Assembly (NCBI RefSeq): GCF_014201115.1
Contig: NZ_JACHDO010000001.1
Coordinates: forward strand, 7,254,001-7,318,000
Reading direction: 5' to 3'
Origin: Nocardiopsis metallicus
Lineage (GTDB): Bacteria > Actinomycetota > Actinomycetes > Streptosporangiales > Streptosporangiaceae
Length of the DNA: 64,000 nt
Below, one piece after another: positions 9,820-20,715 of the stretch. Position 1 is the first letter of the stretch; each line of letters begins with the position of its first letter. Both the position numbers and the translations under genes were made by a program. A model generated the notes under the pieces. The model was given only the letters and a program-made list of their open reading frames with translations, searched no databases and had not been told where the DNA came from.

Positions 9820-10773
9820 GTGAGCACACCTTCCAAGGGCTCTGGAGGCGATGACCACTCGCCGGAGCACAGACCCGACGACAATCCCCCGTCCGGGGCG
9901 GGCGACCCCGCCGCGGACACGGCCGCCGGGCAGCGCTTCGTGCTGCACAAGCCGGGGGGTGAACCGGTCAAGACCGGTCGCAACCTCCCGGTGGCCATCG
10001 CCAGCGGGTGCGCCCTGGGCGCACTCGTCTACTTCTCGATCTTTCCGTGGCCGCAGCTGTTCACGATCATCACCTCCCTGGGGGTGCTGATCGGGCTCCG
10101 CGAGCTCAACCGGGCGTTCGGCGGCAAGGGCATGACCCTGGCCGTGGCCCCGTTGGCCGTGGGCGGTGTGGCCATGCAGGCCGGGGCCTACTTCGGCGGG
10201 GCGGACTGGCTGGCGGGCATCACCGCCGCCACCGCCATCGCCTGCCTGGCCTGGCGGTTGAGGGGAGGGGCCGAGGGGTTCGTCGCCGACGCGTCGGCGA
10301 ACCTGTTCGTCCTGGTGTACCTGCCGTTCCTGCTCGCCACGTGGATGCTGCTCATCGCGCATCCCGAGGACGGTCAGTACCGGCTCGTGGTGTTCATCGT
10401 CGTGACGATCTCCAGCGACATCGGCGGTTACTTCGCCGGGATCCTGCTGGGTCGGCACAAGATGGCGCCGGTGATCAGCCCGAACAAGACCTGGGAGGGC
10501 TTCGGCGGCTCCGTGGTGGGCTGTGCGGTGGCGGGCGCGCTGTGCGTGACCCTGCTGCTGGACGGCCCCTGGTGGGTCGGCGTGGTCCTGGGTCTGGCCG
10601 TGGTCCTGGCGGCCACGGTCGGCGACCTCATCGAGTCGCTCTTCAAGCGCGACCTCGGGGTCAAGGACATGGGCCGGTTCATGCCGGGCCACGGCGGTCT
10701 GATGGACCGCATCGACTCGCTGCTCATCGCGGGTCCCGTGGTCTGGATCGTGCTGAGCCTCCTGCTGCCGTAG
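9820..10773 (+). CDS. cdsA: Phosphatidate cytidylyltransferase
   Basis: A 317-aa membrane enzyme that makes CDP-diacylglycerol from phosphatidate and CTP. After a ~50-residue hydrophilic N-terminus there are about eight hydrophobic segments. The C-terminal CdsA signature is intact: SLFKRDLGVKDMGRFMPGHG then GLMDRIDSLL. The internal SPNKTWEGFGGSV motif is also present. GTG 9820 starts 3 bp after frr and is probably translated by the same transcript. Confidence 0.96.
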   Translation: MSTPSKGSGGDDHSPEHRPDDNPPSGAGDPAADTAAGQRFVLHKPGGEPVKTGRNLPVAIASGCALGALVYFSIFPWPQLFTIITSLGVLIGLRELNRAFGGKGMTLAVAPLAVGGVAMQAGAYFGGADWLAGITAATAIACLAWRLRGGAEGFVADASANLFVLVYLPFLLATWMLLIAHPEDGQYRLVVFIVVTISSDIGGYFAGILLGRHKMAPVISPNKTWEGFGGSVVGCAVAGALCVTLLLDGPWWVGVVLGLAVVLAATVGDLIESLFKRDLGVKDMGRFMPGHGGLMDRIDSLLIAGPVVWIVLSLLLP

Positions 10774-10788
10774 GTAGTGACAAAGCCG

Positions 10789-10843
10789 GGCCCCCGGCCT
10801 CGTTGCACCCAGCGATGGACTGGGCGCCACGAGACCGGGGGCC
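10789..10843. terminator. Terminator after cdsA
   Basis: A long stem-loop: the outer arms GGCCCCCGGCCTCGT and ACGAGACCGGGGGCC pair with one mismatch, and an inner CCCAG/CTGGG stem closes the loop. It ends the pyrH-frr-cdsA unit. Confidence 0.7.
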
Positions 10844-10913
10844 TTCGCCGTGTCCGGCGCCTGAGCCCACCGGGAGCCGGGGTGCGGGGGATGCCCTCGC
10901 GCAGGCGTGTGGA

Positions 10914-10919
10914 TACGCT
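10914..10919 (+). promoter_or_regulatory. -10 element TACGCT, leaderless type
   Basis: TACGCT lies 6 nt before GTG 10926 with no SD between, the same arrangement as at 4225. Confidence 0.35.
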
Positions 10920-10925
10920 CGACGG

Positions 10926-12107
10926 GTGGAAGAACCGCTGATCGAGAGAATGCGCGAGTACGGCGAGACGATCTTCGCCGAGATGACTCGCCTGGCAGTC
11001 GAGACCGAATCCGTCAACCTCGGGCAGGGTTTCCCCGACACCGACGGGCCGCGCTCCCTCCTGGAAGGCGCGACCCGCAACATCATGGCGGGGGTGAACC
11101 AGTACCCGCCCGGCCCGGGGCGCCCCGAGCTTCGCCAGGCGGTGAGCCGCTACCGCTCCCGCCACTACGGGCTGGACTTCGACCCGGACTCCGAGGTCTA
11201 CGTGACCGTGGGCGCCACCGCCGGGATCGCCGCTTCGATGCTGGCACTGGTGGAGCGCGGGGACGAGGTGGTCGTCTTCGAGCCGATGTACGACTCCTAC
11301 GCCGCGATGATCTCCCTCGCGGGCGGGGTGCGCCGCCCCGTCGCGCTGCGTCGCGACCCGTCCAGCGGACGCTTCACCTTCGACCCCGCCGAACTCCGTG
11401 CCGCGATCACCCCGCGCACCCGGCTGATCATGGTCAACACCCCGCACAACCCCACCGGTACGGTCTTCACCGGGGCCGAGCTGGCGGAGATCGCCCGAGT
11501 CTGCCGGGAACACGACCTGATCGCGGTCACCGACGAGGTGTACGAGTTCCTCACCTTCGACGGCCGCCCGCACGTCCCGCTGGCCTCGCTGCCGGGCATG
11601 CGCGAGCGGACCCTGTCGATCTCCTCCGTGGGCAAGATGTTCGCGGTCACCGCCTGGAAGACCGGCTGGGTCACCGGCCCCGAGCCGCTGGTGCGCGCCG
11701 TGCGCACGGTCAACCAGTTCCTCACGTTCTCCGCCAACGGCGCCCTCCAGCTGGCCATCGCCGACGCGATGGACGACGAGTGGGAGTGGATCCAGCGACA
11801 GCGGCGTGCGCTCCAGGACAAGCGGGACCGCCTCGCCGAGGGGTTGACCGCGACCGGGTTCGACGTGAACGTGTGCGAGGGCACCTACTTCCTGATGGCC
11901 GACATCCGGCCGCTGGGCTACCTGGACGGCGAGGAGGTCGCCCGCGCCCTGCCCCGCGAGGCCGGGGTGGCGGCGGTTCCGGCCAAGGTGTTCTACGACC
12001 ACCAGGAGGAGGGCCGGCACCTGCTGCGCTTCGCCTTCTGCAAGAAGGACGAGGTCCTCGACGAGGCGGTCCGCCGCCTGACCACCTGGCACAAGCGCGA
12101 GAACTAG
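10926..12107 (+). CDS. PLP-dependent class I/II aminotransferase
   Basis: A 393-aa fold-type I aminotransferase. Visible features: NLGQGFPDTDGPRSLL, NQYPPGPGRPELRQAVS, the cofactor segments VNTPHNPTGTVF and AVTDEVYEFLTF (Asp and Tyr of the PLP ring site), SSVGKMFAVTAWKTGWV (PLP lysine) and RHLLRFAFCK (carboxylate Arg). This pattern fits the kynurenine/methionine/glutamine-type transaminase group, where the actinobacterial DapC (N-succinyl-diaminopimelate aminotransferase) is also found. The sequence alone does not settle the substrate. GTG 10926 gives the family length. Convergent with metG, with a shared terminator. Confidence 0.85.
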   Translation: MEEPLIERMREYGETIFAEMTRLAVETESVNLGQGFPDTDGPRSLLEGATRNIMAGVNQYPPGPGRPELRQAVSRYRSRHYGLDFDPDSEVYVTVGATAGIAASMLALVERGDEVVVFEPMYDSYAAMISLAGGVRRPVALRRDPSSGRFTFDPAELRAAITPRTRLIMVNTPHNPTGTVFTGAELAEIARVCREHDLIAVTDEVYEFLTFDGRPHVPLASLPGMRERTLSISSVGKMFAVTAWKTGWVTGPEPLVRAVRTVNQFLTFSANGALQLAIADAMDDEWEWIQRQRRALQDKRDRLAEGLTATGFDVNVCEGTYFLMADIRPLGYLDGEEVARALPREAGVAAVPAKVFYDHQEEGRHLLRFAFCKKDEVLDEAVRRLTTWHKREN

Positions 12108-12140
12108 ACCGGCCGGGCGGGGACGACCCGCCCGGCCGGT
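12108..12140. terminator. Bidirectional terminator between aminotransferase and metG
   Basis: A perfect 14-bp stem, ACCGGCCGGGCGGG with CCCGCCCGGCCGGT, around a 5-nt loop. It begins just after the aminotransferase TAG and overlaps the first base of the metG stop codon. Confidence 0.75.
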
Positions 12141-13639
12141 CAGCCGAGCCTGCCGAACACCGGTGCGGCCGGGGGCAGCCGGTCGCCGTCCCCGCCCAGC
12201 TGCGCGGTGAGCCGTGCGGCGGCGCCGGGCAGGAAGGGCCGCAGCAGCCGGGCCAGTTCCCGGCAGGTGGCCACCAGCTCGCCGAGCACCGTGTCCAGAG
12301 CCTCGGGACCGGCCTGTCCGGTGCGCTCGGCGCGGGCCAGTACCCACGGCTCGTGGTCGGCCACGTACCGGTTGCCCTCGTCGGCCAGGGCGACGACGGC
12401 GCCGGTGGCCGCCCGCAGGTCGAAGGCGCGCACGGCCGCGTCCACCTGTTCGGCAGCGGCGGCCCGGGCCTTGGCAAGCGAGGGCTCCCCGGTCCGGGAG
12501 TCCGCCCCGGGGACCACCCCGGAGCGGTACTTGGCGACCATGGTCACGGTCCGGTTGACGAGGTTGCCGATGGTGTTGGCCAGGTCCTCGTCGTGCCGGG
12601 TGACCAGGCGGGCCTCGGTGTAGTCGGTGTCCCCGGAGCGGCCGACGTCGCGCAGCAGCCACCAGCGCAGCGCGTCCGTGCCGTGGCTTTCGGTGATGGC
12701 GACGGGGTCGACGGAGCGGCCCGCCGACTTGCTGATCTTCTCGCCGTCGGCGGTGAGGTACTCGTGCACCAGCACCGTGGTGGGCAGGGCGAGCCCGGCC
12801 GAGAGCAGCAGGGCGGGCCAGTAGACCGCGTGGAAGCGCAGGATGCCCTTGCCGATCACATGCACCCGCTGGTCGGCGCGGGTCCACCAGTGGTCGTGTC
12901 CCTCGGGGTCGGTGCCGTAGCCGGGGCCGGTGATGTAGTTGGCCAGCGCGTCGTACCAGACATAGATGACCTGGCCGGGGTCGCCGGGGACCGGGATGCC
13001 CCAGCCGCGTGCGCGCTCCACGCTGCGGGAGACGCTGAAGTCCTCCAGCCCGGACTCGATGAAGGAGAGTACCTCCCGGCGGCGGAAGTCGGGTTCGACG
13101 AGCAGCTCACCGGAGGAGATCAGCTCCCGGAGCCGGTCCTGGTAGCGGCTGAGCCGGAAGAACCAGTTCTCCTCCGCGACCTCCTCCGGGGCGGTCCGGT
13201 GCTCCGGGCACAGACCGTCGGGGAGTTCGTCGGGAGAGTAGAACTGCTCGCAGCCGGTGCAGTAGAGCCCGGTGTAGCTCCGGCGGTACAGGTCGCCGCG
13301 CTCCAGACAGGCGTTCCAGAGCTTCTCGACCCCGGGCCGGTGCCGCGGGTCGAAGGCGGTGCGTACGGAGTCGTCGAACGAGAGCCCGAGCGGCCCGGCC
13401 AGATCAAGGAAGCGCCGGGAGACCAGGTCCACGTACTCGGCGGTCTCCAGACCGGCCGCACGGGCGCTGAGCACGTTCTTCAAAGCGTTGTCGTCGGTAC
13501 CGGTCTGAGCCCGTACCTCGTCGCCGGCCTCCCGGTGGTACCGGGCTAGTGTGTCGGCCTGTACGAGCTCCAGGGCGTACCCGACGTGCGGCGCGCCGTT
13601 CACGTAAGGGATGGCGGTGGTGACGTAGTAACGATCCAT
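12140..13639 (-). CDS. metG: Methionine-tRNA ligase
   Basis: A 499-aa class I aminoacyl-tRNA synthetase that charges tRNA-Met. The N-terminus MDRYYVTTAIPYVNGAPHVG carries the HIGH-type motif (HVGY, His18), and KISKS lies near residue 301. The zinc-finger-like insert has YCTGCEQFYSPDELPDGLCP. Also present are VYVWYDALANYI-like (VIYVWYDALANYITG) and HVIGKGILRFHAVYWPA. There is no C-terminal tRNA-binding extension, so it is the short actinobacterial form. ATG 13639 is fixed by the conserved N-terminus and by GGAAAAGG 8 nt upstream. A Met-rich leader ORF and alternative hairpins precede it. Confidence 0.95.
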   Translation of the reverse strand: MDRYYVTTAIPYVNGAPHVGYALELVQADTLARYHREAGDEVRAQTGTDDNALKNVLSARAAGLETAEYVDLVSRRFLDLAGPLGLSFDDSVRTAFDPRHRPGVEKLWNACLERGDLYRRSYTGLYCTGCEQFYSPDELPDGLCPEHRTAPEEVAEENWFFRLSRYQDRLRELISSGELLVEPDFRRREVLSFIESGLEDFSVSRSVERARGWGIPVPGDPGQVIYVWYDALANYITGPGYGTDPEGHDHWWTRADQRVHVIGKGILRFHAVYWPALLLSAGLALPTTVLVHEYLTADGEKISKSAGRSVDPVAITESHGTDALRWWLLRDVGRSGDTDYTEARLVTRHDEDLANTIGNLVNRTVTMVAKYRSGVVPGADSRTGEPSLAKARAAAAEQVDAAVRAFDLRAATGAVVALADEGNRYVADHEPWVLARAERTGQAGPEALDTVLGELVATCRELARLLRPFLPGAAARLTAQLGGDGDRLPPAAPVFGRLG

Positions 13640-13647
13640 GGCGGGAA

Positions 13648-13737
13648 CCTTTTCCGGCCCCGCCGGGAACCCTCCGCCGGGAAGGCCCAGTGGGGCCTTT
13701 CCGCGGACAGGGTTGGTCAGAGCACGCGGGGAAGGCC
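13648..13737 (-). promoter_or_regulatory. Attenuator-like alternative hairpins before metG
   Basis: Four segments in mRNA order. Segment 1 GGCCUUCCCCGCG (13737-13725) can pair with segment 2 (13705-13692, CGCGGAAAGGCCCC). Segment 2 can instead pair with segment 3 GGGCCUUCCCGGC (13688-13676): 9 bp, one mismatch, loop CACU. Segment 3 can pair with segment 4 GCCGGAAAAGG (13658-13648), which contains the metG SD. Thus 2:3 and 3:4 exclude each other, and only 3:4 hides the SD. Read by eye; no folding energies were computed. Confidence 0.6.
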
Positions 13738-13785
13738 GGACGACATCATCATCCGGCTCATCATGGTGAAGCACACCCGCGTCAT
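13717..13785 (-). CDS. Met-rich leader peptide upstream of metG
   Basis: ATG 13785 encodes 22 residues, MTRVCFTMMSRMMMSSGLPR then VL, ending at TGA 13719-13717. Six of 22 codons are ATG, including a pair and a triplet. An in-frame ATG at 13794 would add MRG. The hexamer TAGCAT (13798-13793) lies 7 nt before ATG 13785 and would give a leaderless leader mRNA. Because the gene downstream charges tRNA-Met, ribosome stalling at the Met run would sense methionyl-tRNA, as Trp or Leu codons do in classical leaders. The ORF lies 78 nt upstream of metG. The function is inference, but the coding pattern is plain in the sequence. Confidence 0.65.
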   Translation of the reverse strand: MTRVCFTMMSRMMMSSGLPRVL

Positions 13786-13792
13786 GCCCCGC

Positions 13793-13798
13793 ATGCTA
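13793..13798 (-). promoter_or_regulatory. -10 element TAGCAT upstream of the Met leader ORF
   Basis: On the minus strand TAGCAT lies 7 nt before ATG 13785. No -35 match is visible at the usual distance. Confidence 0.35.
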
Positions 13799-13877
13799 CC
13801 GAACCCCGCCCCGCCCGCGCCGGCCTTTCCCACGGGGAACCGTTCGGCCGCCCGCTACTCGGTGGCGGGCCTACGTA

Positions 13878-14634
13878 TCACTGCTTCTCCCAGACACCGC
13901 AGCCCCGACTGGTGAAGGTGTGGTCGGAGGCCTGGATGGTCACCTCGACGCGCGTGGCCGAAGCGGAGAAGTGATTGTCGATCGTTCCACCGTCGGCGTC
14001 GGTGCGTTCCCAGTAACAGTTTCTGAAGGGTCGGTCGCCGCTCTCGGTGACGTAGGTTCCGGCCTCGATGTCTTCACCGACCCGGTAGGTGCCGTTGCCC
14101 AGGGGAAGCGGAGGCGGGTTGTCCAGGTGGTTCTGGGCGGTCTCTGACAGCGTTTCGGCGTCGGGGTGCTCCGGGCAGATCAAGAAGGCGCCGAGGACCT
14201 CCTTTGCGTGCGCCTCAGTGGTGATCTCGTGCTCGCTCAGGTCCCGAAGGCAGAACAGGTAGAGGTCGCTGTAATCCTGGGTGCCGGAGTACTCGGCCAC
14301 CTTGGCGGCTTCCTCCTCCAGCTTGTTCGCGCGTGGCGGGTTGATGACCTCACGGGTTCCGATCCGGACATGGGGAACCGGACGCCAGGCTTCTTCCCAG
14401 GCGAGCACCCGGGTACGACCGCTGCCCCTGGTAGAGCAATTGATGTTGATTCCGGCGGGGATGAGCACACCCTCAGGCTCGGGCTCCCCGCTTGGTGAGG
14501 GAGAAGCTGAAGGAGGGGCTGGGTGCCTCAGCCGCCTGGGCCGGTTCCTCGGCCGGTTCCGCTTCGGAGGGCGCTTCACAGGCGGAGGCCAACAAGAACA
14601 GGGGAAGGAATAGCGGCGCGGCGATTCTGCGCAT
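13878..14634 (-). pseudogene. Secreted lipoprotein, frameshifted
   Basis: ATG 14634 opens a lipoprotein signal peptide (MRRIAAPLFLPLFLLASAC, lipobox LASAC) and an acidic Pro/Ala/Glu linker. That frame runs into a stop at 14473. The rest of the protein continues in another frame through SPSGEPEPEGVLIPAGINI to the C-terminal domain GTYRVGEDIEAGTYVTES, RNCYWERTDADGG, HTFTSRGCGVWEK. That C-terminal module recurs in actinobacterial lipoproteins of unknown role. The switch must lie in the overlap 14473-14579, within the Pro/Ser-rich linker. The parts fit together as one ~250-aa lipoprotein, so this is a recent indel or an assembly error. The function is unknown. Confidence 0.7.
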
Positions 14635-14763
14635 GGGGGAGTTTGTCCTCTCAGGGCTAGGCCTCATGGGTGGGCCTGGGTATCAGGACGCACGAGGAGC
14701 TGAAGAAGCTGCTCTGAGACTGGGCCGGAAAGGCCCTGACGAATCCGGTTGGACCTGTGTTGC

Positions 14764-14814
14764 GGGGCTTGCGAAAGCCCCGGGGCGTTGCCTGTGGACA
14801 ACGTCCCGGGGCCT
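14764..14814. terminator. Double hairpin terminating glgB
   Basis: GGGGCTT-GCGA-AAGCCCC (14764-14781) is followed by a second stem in which CGTTG and CAACG extend the CCCGGGG/CCCGGGG arms (to 14814). It lies just after the glgB stop on the minus strand. The gap to the lipoprotein gene (14635-14838) has no gene. Confidence 0.65.
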
Positions 14815-14838
14815 CTCAGATCAGGGCCTGTGCCCAGT

Positions 14839-17280
14839 TCAGCGTTCGGGTTCGAACCAGACCGCGCCCAGCGGGGGCAGGGTGATCTCCGCGGAGAACG
14901 GCTGTCCGTGCCACTCCTGCGGCTGGGCCTCGACCGCGGTCGGCGCCTCGTACCCGGATCCGCCGAAACGGGGGTCGTCGGAGTTGAGCACCGACGTCCA
15001 CCGGCCCTCGGCGGGCAGGCCCACGCGCCAGTTCGGGCGGGGCACCGGTGAGAAGTTCACCGCGCAGGCCAGGACCGAGCCGTCCTCGCCCCGGCGCAGG
15101 TAGCTGAGCGTGTTCCCCTCGTGGTCGCCGCCGTCCAGCCAACTGAAGCCAGCCGGCTCGGTGTCCAGGGACCACAGCGCCGAGCGGGGCCGGTAGGCGT
15201 CGTTGAGCGCCTTGACCAGCCTCTGGGTCCCCGCGTGGTGCTCGAACTGCAGCAACCACCATGGCACCCCGGCCTCGTGCGACCACTCGTCGCCCTGGGC
15301 GATCTCGCCACCCATGAACAGCAGCTGCTTGCCAGGGTGCGACCACATGAACGACAGCAGCGCCCGCAGCGTGGCGGCACGCTGCCACTCGTCGCCGGGC
15401 GGCTTGTTGAACAGCGACTGCTTGCCGTGTACCACCTCGTCGTGGGACAGCGGCAGCACGTAGTTCTCGCTGTACGCGTAGACCATCGAGAACGTGATGT
15501 CGTTGTGGTGGTACTTGCGGTGGACCGGCTCCTTCTTCACGTACTCCAGCGAGTCGTGCATCCAGCCCATGTTCCACTTCAGCCCGAAGCCGAGCCCGCC
15601 GTGGTCCACCGGGCTGGTCACGCCCGTGTACGCCGTGGACTCCTCGGCGATCATCGCCACGTTCGGGTTGCGCCGGTAGACCGTGGTGTTGAGCTCCTTG
15701 AGGAAGTCGATCGCCTCCAGGTTCTCCCGGCCGCCGAACAGGTTCGGCTCCCACTGCCCGGAGTCCCGGGAGTAGTCCAGGTAGATCATCGAGGCCACGG
15801 CGTCCACCCGCAGGCCGTCGATGTGGAACTCCTCCAACCAGTACAGGGCGTTGGCCACGAGGAAGTTGCGCACCTCGGTCCGCCCGTAGTTGAAGATCAG
15901 CGTCCCCCAGTCCGGGTGCTCACCGCGCCGCGGGTCCGGATGCTCGTACAGCGCCGTGCCGTCGAACCGCGCCAGCGCCCACTCGTCCTTGGGGAAGTGC
16001 GCGGGCACCCAGTCCAGGAAGACCCCGATCCCGGCCCGGTGCAGCGAGTCCACCAGGTGCCGGAACTCGTCGGGTGAACCGAAGCGAGGGGTCGGCGCGT
16101 AGTACGACGTGACCTGGTAGCCCCACGAACCGTCGAAGGGGTGGCCCGCCACCGGGAGGAACTCCACGTGCGTGAAGCCCATGTCGCTGACGTACTCCAC
16201 CAGCTGGTCGGCCAGCTCGCGGTAGTCCAGCCCCGGCCGCCAGGAACCCAGGTGCACCTCGTAGACGCTCATCGGCGCGCGGTGCGGCTCCGAGCCCTTG
16301 CGATCGGTCATCCACTGCTCGTCCGACCACACGTGCTCGGAGGTGGTGACGACGGAGGCCGTCGCCGGTGGCATCTGGGTGCGCCGCGCCATCGGGTCGG
16401 CCTTGTCCCGCCAGTGCCCGTCGGCGCCCAGGACCTGGAACTTGTACAGGTCGCCGTCGCCCACGCCGGGCACGAACAGCTCCCACACGCCGCTGGAACC
16501 CAGGCTGCGCATGGGGTGCGCGATTCCGTTCCAGTAGTTGAAGTCGCCGATCACCCGCACCCCCCGGGCGTCCGGGGCCCAGACCGCGAAGCCCGTGCCC
16601 GAGACCTCGCCCATGGGCCCCTCGACGGTCGTGGTGTGCGCACCCAGAGCCCGCCACAGCTCCTCGTGGCGTCCTTCGCCGATCAGGTGCAGGTCCAACT
16701 CGCCCACGGTGGGCGCCGCCCGGTAGGCGTCGGCCTCGATCAGTTCGGGCCCGCCCTCCTCGTAGCGGACGGCGATCCGGTAGTCCTCGGTCTTCTGCGG
16801 GAGCCGGGCGGCGAACACGCCGCGGTGGCGGTGGGTGAGCCCGACACGGGTGCTGTCCGGCAGCACGGCGTCCACCTCGACCGCGCCGGGCCGCAGGACG
16901 CGCAGGTCGCGGCCGTGCAGACCCAGCACGGAGTGCGGGTCGTGGTGCCAGCCGTCCACCACCCGGTCGAGCTCGGCGACCAGGCCCGCGGAGAGCCCGG
17001 CGGGCGTGCGGGTCCGCCTGGGAGCCGCCTTCGCGGTCGTGGCGGTCGTCGTCTTCTTCGCGGCCGCCTTCTTCGGGGCCGTCTTCTTGGGCGCCGTCTT
17101 CGCGGTCGCTGTCTCGGCGGTGGCTGTCTTGGCGGCCGAAGCCTTGGCCGCGGGCTTCTGTTCGGCTGGCTTCTTCCGGGCGGGCTGCTTCCGGGTGGGC
17201 GCCTTCTTCGCCGCCGCGGGCTCCGCTGCCGCCGGTTGCTCGTCGGCTGTCGCGGACTTGTTGGTCGTGCGCGGTGACAA
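14839..17280 (-). CDS. glgB: 1,4-alpha-glucan branching enzyme
   Basis: An 813-aa GH13 branching enzyme that introduces alpha-1,6 branches into the glucan made by GlgE. The first ~75 residues are a Lys/Ala/Thr/Pro-rich tail (APKKTAPKKAAAKKTTT) resembling histone-H1-like tails. Then come CBM48-type N-domains (DPHSVLGLHGRDLRVLRPGA, GTGFAVWAPDARGVRVIGDF) and the GH13 barrel. Catalytic residues: nucleophile Asp in GLRVDAVASM, acid Glu in MIAEES, Asp in LPLSHDEVVHG. TTG 17280 is chosen because GGAG lies about 8 nt upstream and the family N-domain follows; the frame is open further upstream without similarity. It is the last gene of the glgE-treS-mak-glgB operon. Confidence 0.93.
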   Translation of the reverse strand: MSPRTTNKSATADEQPAAAEPAAAKKAPTRKQPARKKPAEQKPAAKASAAKTATAETATAKTAPKKTAPKKAAAKKTTTATTAKAAPRRTRTPAGLSAGLVAELDRVVDGWHHDPHSVLGLHGRDLRVLRPGAVEVDAVLPDSTRVGLTHRHRGVFAARLPQKTEDYRIAVRYEEGGPELIEADAYRAAPTVGELDLHLIGEGRHEELWRALGAHTTTVEGPMGEVSGTGFAVWAPDARGVRVIGDFNYWNGIAHPMRSLGSSGVWELFVPGVGDGDLYKFQVLGADGHWRDKADPMARRTQMPPATASVVTTSEHVWSDEQWMTDRKGSEPHRAPMSVYEVHLGSWRPGLDYRELADQLVEYVSDMGFTHVEFLPVAGHPFDGSWGYQVTSYYAPTPRFGSPDEFRHLVDSLHRAGIGVFLDWVPAHFPKDEWALARFDGTALYEHPDPRRGEHPDWGTLIFNYGRTEVRNFLVANALYWLEEFHIDGLRVDAVASMIYLDYSRDSGQWEPNLFGGRENLEAIDFLKELNTTVYRRNPNVAMIAEESTAYTGVTSPVDHGGLGFGLKWNMGWMHDSLEYVKKEPVHRKYHHNDITFSMVYAYSENYVLPLSHDEVVHGKQSLFNKPPGDEWQRAATLRALLSFMWSHPGKQLLFMGGEIAQGDEWSHEAGVPWWLLQFEHHAGTQRLVKALNDAYRPRSALWSLDTEPAGFSWLDGGDHEGNTLSYLRRGEDGSVLACAVNFSPVPRPNWRVGLPAEGRWTSVLNSDDPRFGGSGYEAPTAVEAQPQEWHGQPFSAEITLPPLGAVWFEPER

Positions 17281-17345
17281 TTCGACTCCGTGGTTGTGGT
17301 GTGCGGATGGCGGGGAGGGCGGTGGTCGAGCAGGGGGACGCGGAA

Positions 17346-17375
17346 GGCGGCCGCCGTGCGCGAACGGCGGCCGCC
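17346..17375 (-). terminator. mak-glgB intercistronic hairpin
   Basis: A perfect 12-bp stem (GGCGGCCGCCGT with ACGGCGGCCGCC) and a 6-nt loop in the 101-bp gap between mak and glgB. There is no T tract on the minus strand, so it could partly attenuate glgB or protect upstream mRNA. Confidence 0.45.
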
Positions 17376-17381
17376 CCGGAC

Positions 17382-18797
17382 TCAGCCGGGCACCCGGGGT
17401 GCGCCGGCCGCTGTGGTTCCTGATCCGGCGGTGACGCCGCTGGCCGCCGTGGCGATGGACTCCAGCGGAACCCGGAGCCAGTTGGGTCGGTTGCGCGCCT
17501 CGTACAGGACCTCGTAGACGGCCTTGTCGAACTCGAAGGCGCGCAGCACGGTCAGGTGCTTCTCCGGGTCGGCCCCGCCGCCGTCGGCGTAGCCCCGGCA
17601 GAACGCGTCCCGGTTGCGCCGGGCCCAGGACCGCGCGGCCCACGACAGCTCAGGGTCCTCGTCCTGCCCGACCAACAGGTACCCGGCCGCGTAGTCGAAG
17701 GAGCGCAGCATCCCGGCCACGTCCCGCAGCGGGCTCGACAGCCGCTGGCGCTCACGCACCGGGACGGTCGGCTCACCCTCGAAGTCCAGCAGCACCCACC
17801 CGGACTCGGGCCGGATGACCTGCCCAAGGTGGTAGTCGCCGTGGATGCGTTGGATGGGCAGCGGCTCGTCCACCCGGGCGAAGTCGGCGTAGGCCTCCAT
17901 CACCCGGGGCGCGTGCTCGGCCAGTTCGGGCACCTCCGCGCTGGCCATGGCCAGGCGTTCCACCATGGCGTCGGCCAGCTCGGCCGCCGCCGAGGGCGAG
18001 AGCACGTCCGTGGGCAGTGCCCGCGCCAGTGAACTGTGCACCTCGGCGGTGGTCCGCCCGAGCCGGGCGGCCTCCTCGCTGAAGTCGGCCTCCGCCCCCT
18101 CCAACAGGGTCCGGACGTTCTCCGTGGCCAGCACCCACCCGTCCGTGGCGTCCGGGACGAAGGTCTGCAGCAGGGCCAGCGTGGTCGGTGCGCGATGGCC
18201 GGACAGGTCCGCCTCGATCCACCCGCACGGGCGCGCCACGTACGGCGAACCGGACAGCGCCATGTTCAGCTCCAGGTCCGGGTTGTGGCCGGGCCAGAGC
18301 CTGCGGAAGGTCTTGAGGACGTAGTCGCGTCCGTAGACCAGCGAGGTGTTGGACTGCTCACCGGTCAGCAGGCGCCCCGGACCGCAGGCGGTGATGGTGG
18401 TGCCCGGCAGAGTGCGGAACCGTACCCGGCCGCGTCGGCCGGTGGTCTCCTGTGTGGTGAACCGTTCCAGCAGCAGCGCCGTGAGCTGCGGGTCGTGCGC
18501 GGCGTCGTAGACCACCCGGGGGCGGCCGCCCGCGACCTGGCACACGCCGATGGCGGTGCGGGCCAGGTTCGGGGGCAGGGACCGGGGCGGGCGCGAGCCG
18601 AGCAGCACCTGGTAACGGGAGCTGAGGCCGCGCTGCCCCGCCTGGATGACGAGCATGTTCAGGTCGGGTCCGCCGGGGCCGGCCGAGACCAGGGTGTACC
18701 TGCTTTCGATCCGGACCTGCCGGATCGGGATCCCCTTACCGGAGAACCATCGTTGACGGGGTAGCCAGACTGCCAGGAGTTCTTCGAGCTGTGACAT
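17382..18797 (-). CDS. mak: Maltokinase
   Basis: A 471-aa maltokinase (Pep2/Mak) that makes maltose-1-phosphate from maltose and ATP, feeding GlgE. Motifs: LAVWLPRQRWFSGKG at the N-terminus; RLLTGEQSNTSLVYGRDYVLKTFRRL; the aminoglycoside-phosphotransferase-like Brenner motif RIHGDYHLGQVI; and VLLDFEGEP with the Mg-binding Asp. ATG 18797 starts one base after the treS TGA (TGAGATG), so translation is probably coupled; no independent SD is visible. In some actinobacteria treS and mak are fused; here they are separate genes. Confidence 0.94.
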   Translation of the reverse strand: MSQLEELLAVWLPRQRWFSGKGIPIRQVRIESRYTLVSAGPGGPDLNMLVIQAGQRGLSSRYQVLLGSRPPRSLPPNLARTAIGVCQVAGGRPRVVYDAAHDPQLTALLLERFTTQETTGRRGRVRFRTLPGTTITACGPGRLLTGEQSNTSLVYGRDYVLKTFRRLWPGHNPDLELNMALSGSPYVARPCGWIEADLSGHRAPTTLALLQTFVPDATDGWVLATENVRTLLEGAEADFSEEAARLGRTTAEVHSSLARALPTDVLSPSAAAELADAMVERLAMASAEVPELAEHAPRVMEAYADFARVDEPLPIQRIHGDYHLGQVIRPESGWVLLDFEGEPTVPVRERQRLSSPLRDVAGMLRSFDYAAGYLLVGQDEDPELSWAARSWARRNRDAFCRGYADGGGADPEKHLTVLRAFEFDKAVYEVLYEARNRPNWLRVPLESIATAASGVTAGSGTTAAGAPRVPG

Positions 18798-18798
18798 C

Positions 18799-20715
<1,917 letters not shown>

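Follow-up and report, generated by a model that had tools for sequence, protein, structure and literature searches.

The Met-rich leader ORF upstream of a methionyl-tRNA synthetase (MetRS) gene, metG, in Nocardiopsis metallicus very probably belongs to a ribosome-mediated attenuator of this gene, which encodes a type-1 enzyme; the attenuator would respond to the level of charged elongator Met-tRNA. The leader lies in a 64,000-nt stretch of contig NZ_JACHDO010000001.1 that we analyzed as a whole (hereafter the window, to which all coordinates refer). In the upstream sequences of relatives the leader, a promoter-like box in front of it, its Met codons, and a chain of alternative stems are recurrent. 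We consider premature termination a more plausible read-out than occlusion of the Shine-Dalgarno (SD) sequence, and the read-out may differ between lineages.

The leader ORF and its promoter-like box

As the initial annotation had described, the leader ORF (Table 1) has 22 codons, six of them ATG: the start codon, a pair, and a triplet. It begins at 13785 and ends with a stop codon at 13719-13717, leaving 77 nt, rather than the 78 nt given earlier, to the metG ATG at 13639. By sequence it contains several codons of the regulated amino acid, as leader ORFs of ribosome-mediated attenuators do. The ATG follows a TANNNT hexamer of the -10 type at the 6-7 nt spacing of leaderless mRNAs, and the leader is, judged by its sequence, probably leaderless. 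This box was absent from the initial annotation, as were the arm within the Met codons and the status of the gene as a second MetRS.

A consensus scan of 13500-14000 returned neither a sigma-70-type promoter site nor an intrinsic terminator. Rfam gave no match at the leader (window positions 10000-20000, E up to 5), and in eight loci it matched only tRNAs, in L139, with nothing at the leader; a T-box or known riboswitch was rejected on these grounds. Searching the same genome with the Met motif gave one further site, with 3 mismatches, and the reversed-pattern control gave two. With the pattern used, no Met leader was found 5′ of metN in six genomes, this one included.

The gene 5′ of the leader (13878-14579, minus strand) encodes a product with an Rv1352/Rv1906c domain (NF053833). 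An apparent inverted repeat at 14771-14827, by the stop of a branching-enzyme gene (14839-17643, minus strand), has sub-threshold Rfam matches to F6 and rdlD on both strands and is perhaps a terminator.

Table 1. Features of the metG leader region, in window coordinates
Feature	Position	Strand	Reading	Basis
TAGCAT, -10-type hexamer (TANNNT)	13793..13798	-	7 nt 5′ of leader ATG	sequence
Leader ORF MTRVCFTMMSRMMMSSGLPRVL	13717..13785	-	Met-rich, probably leaderless	sequence; Met leaders recurrent in relatives
Met codon pair	13759..13764	-		sequence
Met codon triplet	13744..13752	-	putative stalling site	sequence; Met most enriched leader residue
Arm 1 GCCGGAUGAU	13748..13757	-	contains Met codons; pairs with arm 2; would be masked by a ribosome stalled at Met	
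Arm 2, GUCGUCCGGC (13744-13735) overlapping GGCCUUCCCCGCG (13737-13725)	13725..13744	-	first part pairs with arm 1, second with arm 3	
Arm 3 CGCGGAAAGGCCCC	13692..13705	-	pairs with arm 2 or arm 4	
Arm 4 GGGCCUUCCCGGC	13676..13688	-	with arm 3 forms the putative attenuator hairpin 3:4, which lacks a U tract in the window	
metG SD region GCCGGAAAAGG	13648..13658	-	pairing with arm 4 unsupported	
metG	12140..13639	-	type-1 MetRS, 499 aa, the genome's second MetRS	domain and structure matches

The type-1 MetRS and its distribution

The 499-aa protein is identified as a MetRS, the kind of gene expected downstream of an attenuator (metabolism of an amino acid or its tRNA). Its best solved-structure matches are type-1 enzymes, and those of a 605-aa MetRS elsewhere in the same genome (G000) are type-2 enzymes, by what we take to be the organism and type of each matched entry. 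The two-type scheme itself is that of PMC9071491, in the part dealing with MetRS types. Across residues 125-486 of the 499-aa enzyme, the two proteins share 33% identity. The window's genome shows the arrangement of auxiliary aminoacyl-tRNA synthetases (aaRS), in which the housekeeping enzyme is accompanied by an extra copy of another type.

Within the genus, the type-1 gene is present in 5 of the 40 genomes (this one among them), and every one of the 40 has a match of the other kind with 32-36% identity. Matches occur in 61 of 200 genomes of the family sample (E≤1e-90; 14 of these only to a distant clade, at 38-42%) and, at E≤1e-110, in 39 of 394 of the class sample and 50 of 396 of the phylum sample, 46 of the 50 at 40-45% only. 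A further MetRS clade of about 40% identity in the same family (L095-L107, L111, L112) lacks Met leaders by a test for MM or MxM.

Among 51 genomes carrying the type-1 gene, 29 also have a type-2 MetRS at E≤1e-60. In G051, G067, and G191 the type-2 match contains one internal TGA, perhaps an alignment running past the natural stop. A MetRS-domain scan of 27 chosen genomes, 22 of them picked for having no type-2 MetRS at E≤1e-60, left the type-1 gene as the only MetRS found in nine (G041, G081, G082, G098, G207, G264, G342, G395, and G441); G311 yielded an additional 1167-aa frame and is ambiguous for this count. In the window's genome, then, the type-1 gene is a second copy, but in some others it is apparently the sole MetRS.

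Conservation of the leader among relatives

For each of 85 distinct loci, the window's own included, we took up to 600 nt of upstream sequence; all have at least 46.5% MetRS identity. This limit was set after seeing the data, between L139 (47.2%, with a leader) and L047 (45.5%, with none). Dropped as duplicates with identical upstream sequence were L003, L034, L035, L036, L050, and L051; left out were G313, G324, G344, and G427 (56-58%) and G234, G237, and G248 (42-43%) from the class search, and 21 of the 47 matches at 40-45% from the phylum search. Controls were 25 type-2 loci, namely those fetched whose N-terminal part was located (the genus has 40), and 44 other MetRS genes at 37-46.5% identity.

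In 72 of the 85 loci the gene is preceded by a short ORF with MM or MxM, which in 66 also has TANNNT 4-9 nt upstream. Shuffled upstream regions contain the ORF in 2.3% and the ORF with the box in 0.1% of cases (1700 shuffles). None of the type-2 controls and 3 of the 44 other MetRS genes have the ORF; neither set has a case with the box. A search blind to Met, for an ORF starting 6-7 nt behind TANNNT, found one in 73 of the 85 loci (ATG in 54, GTG in 19) and in none of the 25 and 44 controls. All 73 of these ORFs contain an internal Met, and 63 contain MM or MxM. Met is enriched 4.2-fold over shuffled codons, more than any other residue. Examples are MASHAAQAMMPR (L066), MTAQVMMTR (L067), MTTCLVMMSS (L084), MTQCTQPMMRPVQGPLRVR (L127), and MSTARVTAEAASPRMMLMSMPSGLFRAS (L115). 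The Met codons that the initial annotation expected to be conserved in relatives are thus recovered by both searches, and its suggestion of a leaderless leader mRNA stands as probable, given the box 6-7 nt before the start in most loci.

The remainder of the peptide drifts between groups. That all the leaders of the Met-blind search keep an internal Met while the rest drifts speaks against a translated uORF that senses no amino acid and, for example, delivers ribosomes to metG by reinitiation. Reinitiation after leader peptides has been proposed for bacteria (PMC4833913, in its passage on this point), yet we regard such a role for this ORF as very improbable.

Two Chloroflexota MAGs (L043, L045) have a Met-containing short ORF before the gene, no TANNNT box, and then T-tailed hairpins. 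No Met leader was found at L054, L060, or L089; the genomes of L054 and L089 showed no other MetRS. A quick tree was built from 114 MetRS proteins (46 of 160 were left out as type-2, other rows below 37%, duplicates, or near copies), and on it the leader label changes 4 times, compared to 33.6 times with shuffled labels, so that leaders cluster; the label was taken from the chained-stem search described below, and L044, which has a Met-containing short ORF, was counted as without. It would seem that the leader is an ancient trait of a single type-1 MetRS clade, one that spread together with the gene.

Alternative stems behind the Met codons

The four mutually pairing segments that the initial annotation described are present, at 13737-13725, 13705-13692, 13688-13676, and 13658-13648. 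In our numbering, which adds arm 1 within the Met codons, the first of them is part of arm 2, the next two are arms 3 and 4, and the last is the SD region. The 1:2 pairing in the window is GCCGGAUGAU:GUCGUCCGGC; the 2:3 pairing contains GGCCUU:AAGGCC and the 3:4 pairing AAGGCCC:GGGCCUU. Of 200 dinucleotide shuffles of the window's leader RNA, only 1 folds as well or better (z -3.1). In the largest group of relatives, the sequence at the Met codons and behind them reads ATGATG-CCCCGC-stop-GCGGGGCC ... GAGGCCCC..GGGGCCUC, and the stems of L066 are CCCCG:CGGGG (1:2), GGGGCC:GGCCCC (2:3), and GAGGCCCC:GGGGCCUC (3:4).

Mutually exclusive 1:2, 2:3, and 3:4 pairings with the regulatory codons at arm 1, as in attenuators, exceeded shuffles at p≤0.05 in 60 of the 82 leaders (60 shuffles per leader; the median p was 0.017). 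Because the search sometimes settled one step downstream of the intended set (e.g., L005, L008, L041, L131), these p values test chained stems generally and no fixed set. The window alone is within chance (p 0.12, 60 shuffles), and L008 has p 0.27; the weight of the case therefore rests on the relatives. Before that, 2:3 energy had been tested more crudely, and 16 of 85 leaders had p≤0.05 (0.92 for the window). That test scored only the top hairpin of each leader, by the energy with which its 5′ arm pairs with the preceding stretch; the hairpins were badly chosen, and because neighboring stems were merged we replaced it with a search for contiguous stems.

Alternative stems are common in GC-rich DNA, and those of the window do not by themselves exceed chance, as would be expected if a Met-rich ORF and GC-rich complementary segments had come together without function. 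We give this reading next to no probability: conservation across families refutes it, and the rarity of the box with a Met leader in shuffled regions, together with its absence from all 69 controls, contrasts with its presence in most loci.

The 3:4 stem, the 2:3 stem of the initial annotation, shows the compensatory changes that were to be looked for there: the window's group has 14 compensatory cells at 4 positions, compared to a permuted mean of 6.3 (P 0.0015; 16 distinct arm pairs from 23 sequences, with a permutation that ignores kinship). In the consensus folds of two alignments, 4 of 15 and 4 of 13 pairs show a double change; covariation is slight in these folds because the arms are nearly invariant within groups. 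The consensus fold of the first group prefers arm 3 paired with GGGGC adjoining the SD over 3:4.

A hairpin ending with at least 5 T in 8 nt occurs in 13 of 81 loci, and one with at least 6 T in 7 (L040, L043, L045, L046, L090, L094, L139); L040 and L094 have runs of eight T. In some distant relatives the T-tailed hairpin lies at the position of the window's 3:4 hairpin. The latter has no U tract and no site in the consensus scan, which would suit Rho-dependent attenuation, with the translation state of the leader exposing or hiding Rho loading sites and the hairpins secondary. Rho has been considered for mycobacterial cys leaders (Seliverstov 2005, PMC1262725, in its section on these leaders). 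The recurrence of the chained stems and the T-tailed hairpins of some relatives argue against this mechanism, and we find it quite improbable here.

Computed effect of a stalled ribosome

We modeled co-transcriptional folding with 13 nt masked from the A-site codon and the RNA folded as far as the loop after arm 3. A ribosome placed at the initial Met codon of the last cluster gives arm 3 a mean predicted probability of 0.80 of being paired upstream; the value is 0.50 without a ribosome and 0.21 when the ribosome stands at the stop codon. The stalled state exceeds the stop state by more than 0.2 in 74 of 80 loci, with the reverse in 1, a contrast that is partly built in, as the mask used for the stop state itself hides most of arm 2. 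The contrast between stalled and no ribosome is weaker (greater by more than 0.2 in 52 of 80 loci, the reverse in 3).

For the window (L001), arm 3 is predicted to be paired upstream with probability 0.84 at the second Met of the pair and 0.83, 0.69, and 0.06 at the three Mets of the triplet. A stalled ribosome was initially thought to cover the segment at 13737-13725, letting arms 3 and 4 pair. At the first two triplet codons that segment is instead largely free and pairs with arm 3; it is covered only at the third. The switch as first drawn is thus off by one register, and the 2:3 pairing opposes the very hairpin that stalling was supposed to allow.

At equilibrium, 3:4 is favored even when the ribosome is stalled (mean 0.84 over 80 loci, compared to 0.96 at stop over 64). 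It drops by more than 0.2 on stalling in only 14 of 64 loci, and the states are hardly separated. Attenuation here therefore depends on kinetics: arm 2 would have to capture arm 3 before arm 4 has been transcribed, an order of events usually assumed for ribosome-mediated attenuators. Before arm 4 exists, the modeled effect of the stalled ribosome has the right sign for attenuation, although this is partly built in.

The Shine-Dalgarno region

The complementarity between 13688-13676 and 13658-13648 is real and could serve translational attenuation, which would be off when arm 4 holds the SD and on when stalling lets 3:4 form and the SD is released. Such a read-out is also favored by a double change in L005 that keeps an SD hairpin and by a stem over the SD in L132. 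The pairing of arm 4 with the SD region is, however, no better than that of shuffled arm 4 (p 0.26-0.81; 23 rows tested and the five closest loci; GC-rich DNA makes this test weak). Nor does predicted SD accessibility rise on stalling: compared to the stop state it goes up in 6 and down in 23 loci, and compared to no ribosome up in 10 and down in 9 (the 79-locus count lacks the window's locus and has L005 with a wrong SD). When we recomputed the five closest loci, the window's SD was predicted to be 0.68-0.75 open in every state, none of the five opened its SD on stalling, and L006 and L007 closed somewhat. The earlier idea that arm 4 pairs with the SD during smooth translation thus finds no support. 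Moreover, with the ribosome at either of the first two triplet Met codons, most of arm 2 remains available to arm 3 and pairs with it. On the shuffled-arm comparison and the failure of the SD to open, we rejected a switch through SD pairing, and we consider translational attenuation unlikely.

Around 13665-13640, the SD hairpin GGCGGG:CCCGCC of the window (L001) is kept in its closest relative, L005, as GGUGGG:CCCACC; L006 has one mismatch in it. In L132 (family f19), a perfect 10-bp stem, CUCCUCCGCC:GGCGGAGGAG, lies over the SD just 5′ of the metG start. Its 5′ arm can pair with arm 4 instead, a possible further translational switch in that family.

Proposed mechanism

The central claim of the initial annotation, Met-codon ribosome-mediated attenuation of a MetRS gene, is supported by the Met leaders of relatives and the chained stems. 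In the attenuator that we propose, transcription would start at the leader ATG. With Met-tRNA plentiful, the ribosome would reach the stop codon and cover or release arm 2, arms 3 and 4 would form the attenuator hairpin, and most transcripts would end before metG. With Met-tRNA scarce, the ribosome would stall at the Met codons and mask arm 1; arm 2 could then capture the emerging arm 3, the 3:4 hairpin would come late, and MetRS would be made.

Methionine is a special case, as one synthetase serves both the codons that sense and the codon that starts translation. Because this enzyme also charges the initiator tRNA, translation of the leader itself should stop in severe Met-tRNA shortage, which counts against the model. 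The switch might accordingly be biphasic, turning on at moderate shortage and off when leader initiation fails.

Where the gene is the only copy, the arrangement looks like feedback control of an essential enzyme. As a second copy, it may point to stress or inhibitors that put the resident MetRS out of action. Leader and type-1 MetRS could conceivably form a self-contained module that moves between lineages and provides a spare MetRS for use when the resident type-2 enzyme fails, although we regard this as a tentative and rather doubtful idea; the trigger might hypothetically be a natural inhibitor of the type-2 enzyme.

Comparison with known systems

Eight leader peptides of Streptomyces lividans, before alaS, thrS, trpS, leuS, leuA, ilvBHC, trpE, and metNIQ, are presented in the relevant part of PMC8079986, where all but that of alaS are called leaderless and those of trpS, thrS, and metNIQ are described without a U tract. 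The leuL2-leuS, trpL2-trpS, alaL-alaS, and thrL-thrS arrangements resemble the one here in having a short ORF of cognate codons before an aaRS gene, with hairpins downstream, and metL-metNIQ resembles it in its Met short ORF, with metL preceding a methionine transporter (PMC8079986, same part). A MetRS gene follows none of these eight (PMC8079986), unlike the leader described here. In contrast to the S. lividans set, the Nocardiopsis-type MetRS leader recurs across families and has candidates in Chloroflexota MAGs. The auxiliary indolmycin-resistant TrpRS of Streptomyces coelicolor, likewise a second aaRS copy, is reportedly under ribosome-mediated attenuation by its cognate codons (Vecchione and Sello), which are Trp there and Met here.

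Classical attenuators of trpS and leuS are predicted in Streptomyces and likened to gamma-proteobacterial pheST in the corresponding section of PMC1262725; as here, an aaRS gene would be attenuated via codons of its own amino acid. Unlike our results, that survey, aaRS operons included, saw no conserved RNA structures for methionine operons, as far as the same section goes (PMC1262725). In bacilli, His leader peptides precede hisZ and a hisS paralog (PMC2965389, in its account of these genes). These too are leader peptides before a duplicated aaRS gene, but they belong to Firmicutes, concern histidine, and were found via a search for intrinsic terminators (PMC2965389). The Cys-rich uORFs of mycobacteria (PMC4633059, in the portion describing them) share with our leader an actinobacterial, leaderless uORF and a cluster of one residue near its end; unlike it, they precede cysteine-related genes. 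No conserved terminator hairpins were seen for the mycobacterial cys leaders in the relevant passage of PMC1262725.

The initial annotation had called a Met-codon leader before MetRS unusual. In the parts of the open-access literature covered by our search we found no report of a leader peptide before a MetRS gene, a weak negative that agrees with this; the remark is too strong for the wider mechanism, as leaders of aaRS genes, several of them leaderless, and of metNIQ are in print (PMC8079986, in the part cited above). MetRS thus probably joins the aaRS genes already known to be under leader-peptide attenuation, and it brings a conserved family large enough for testing.
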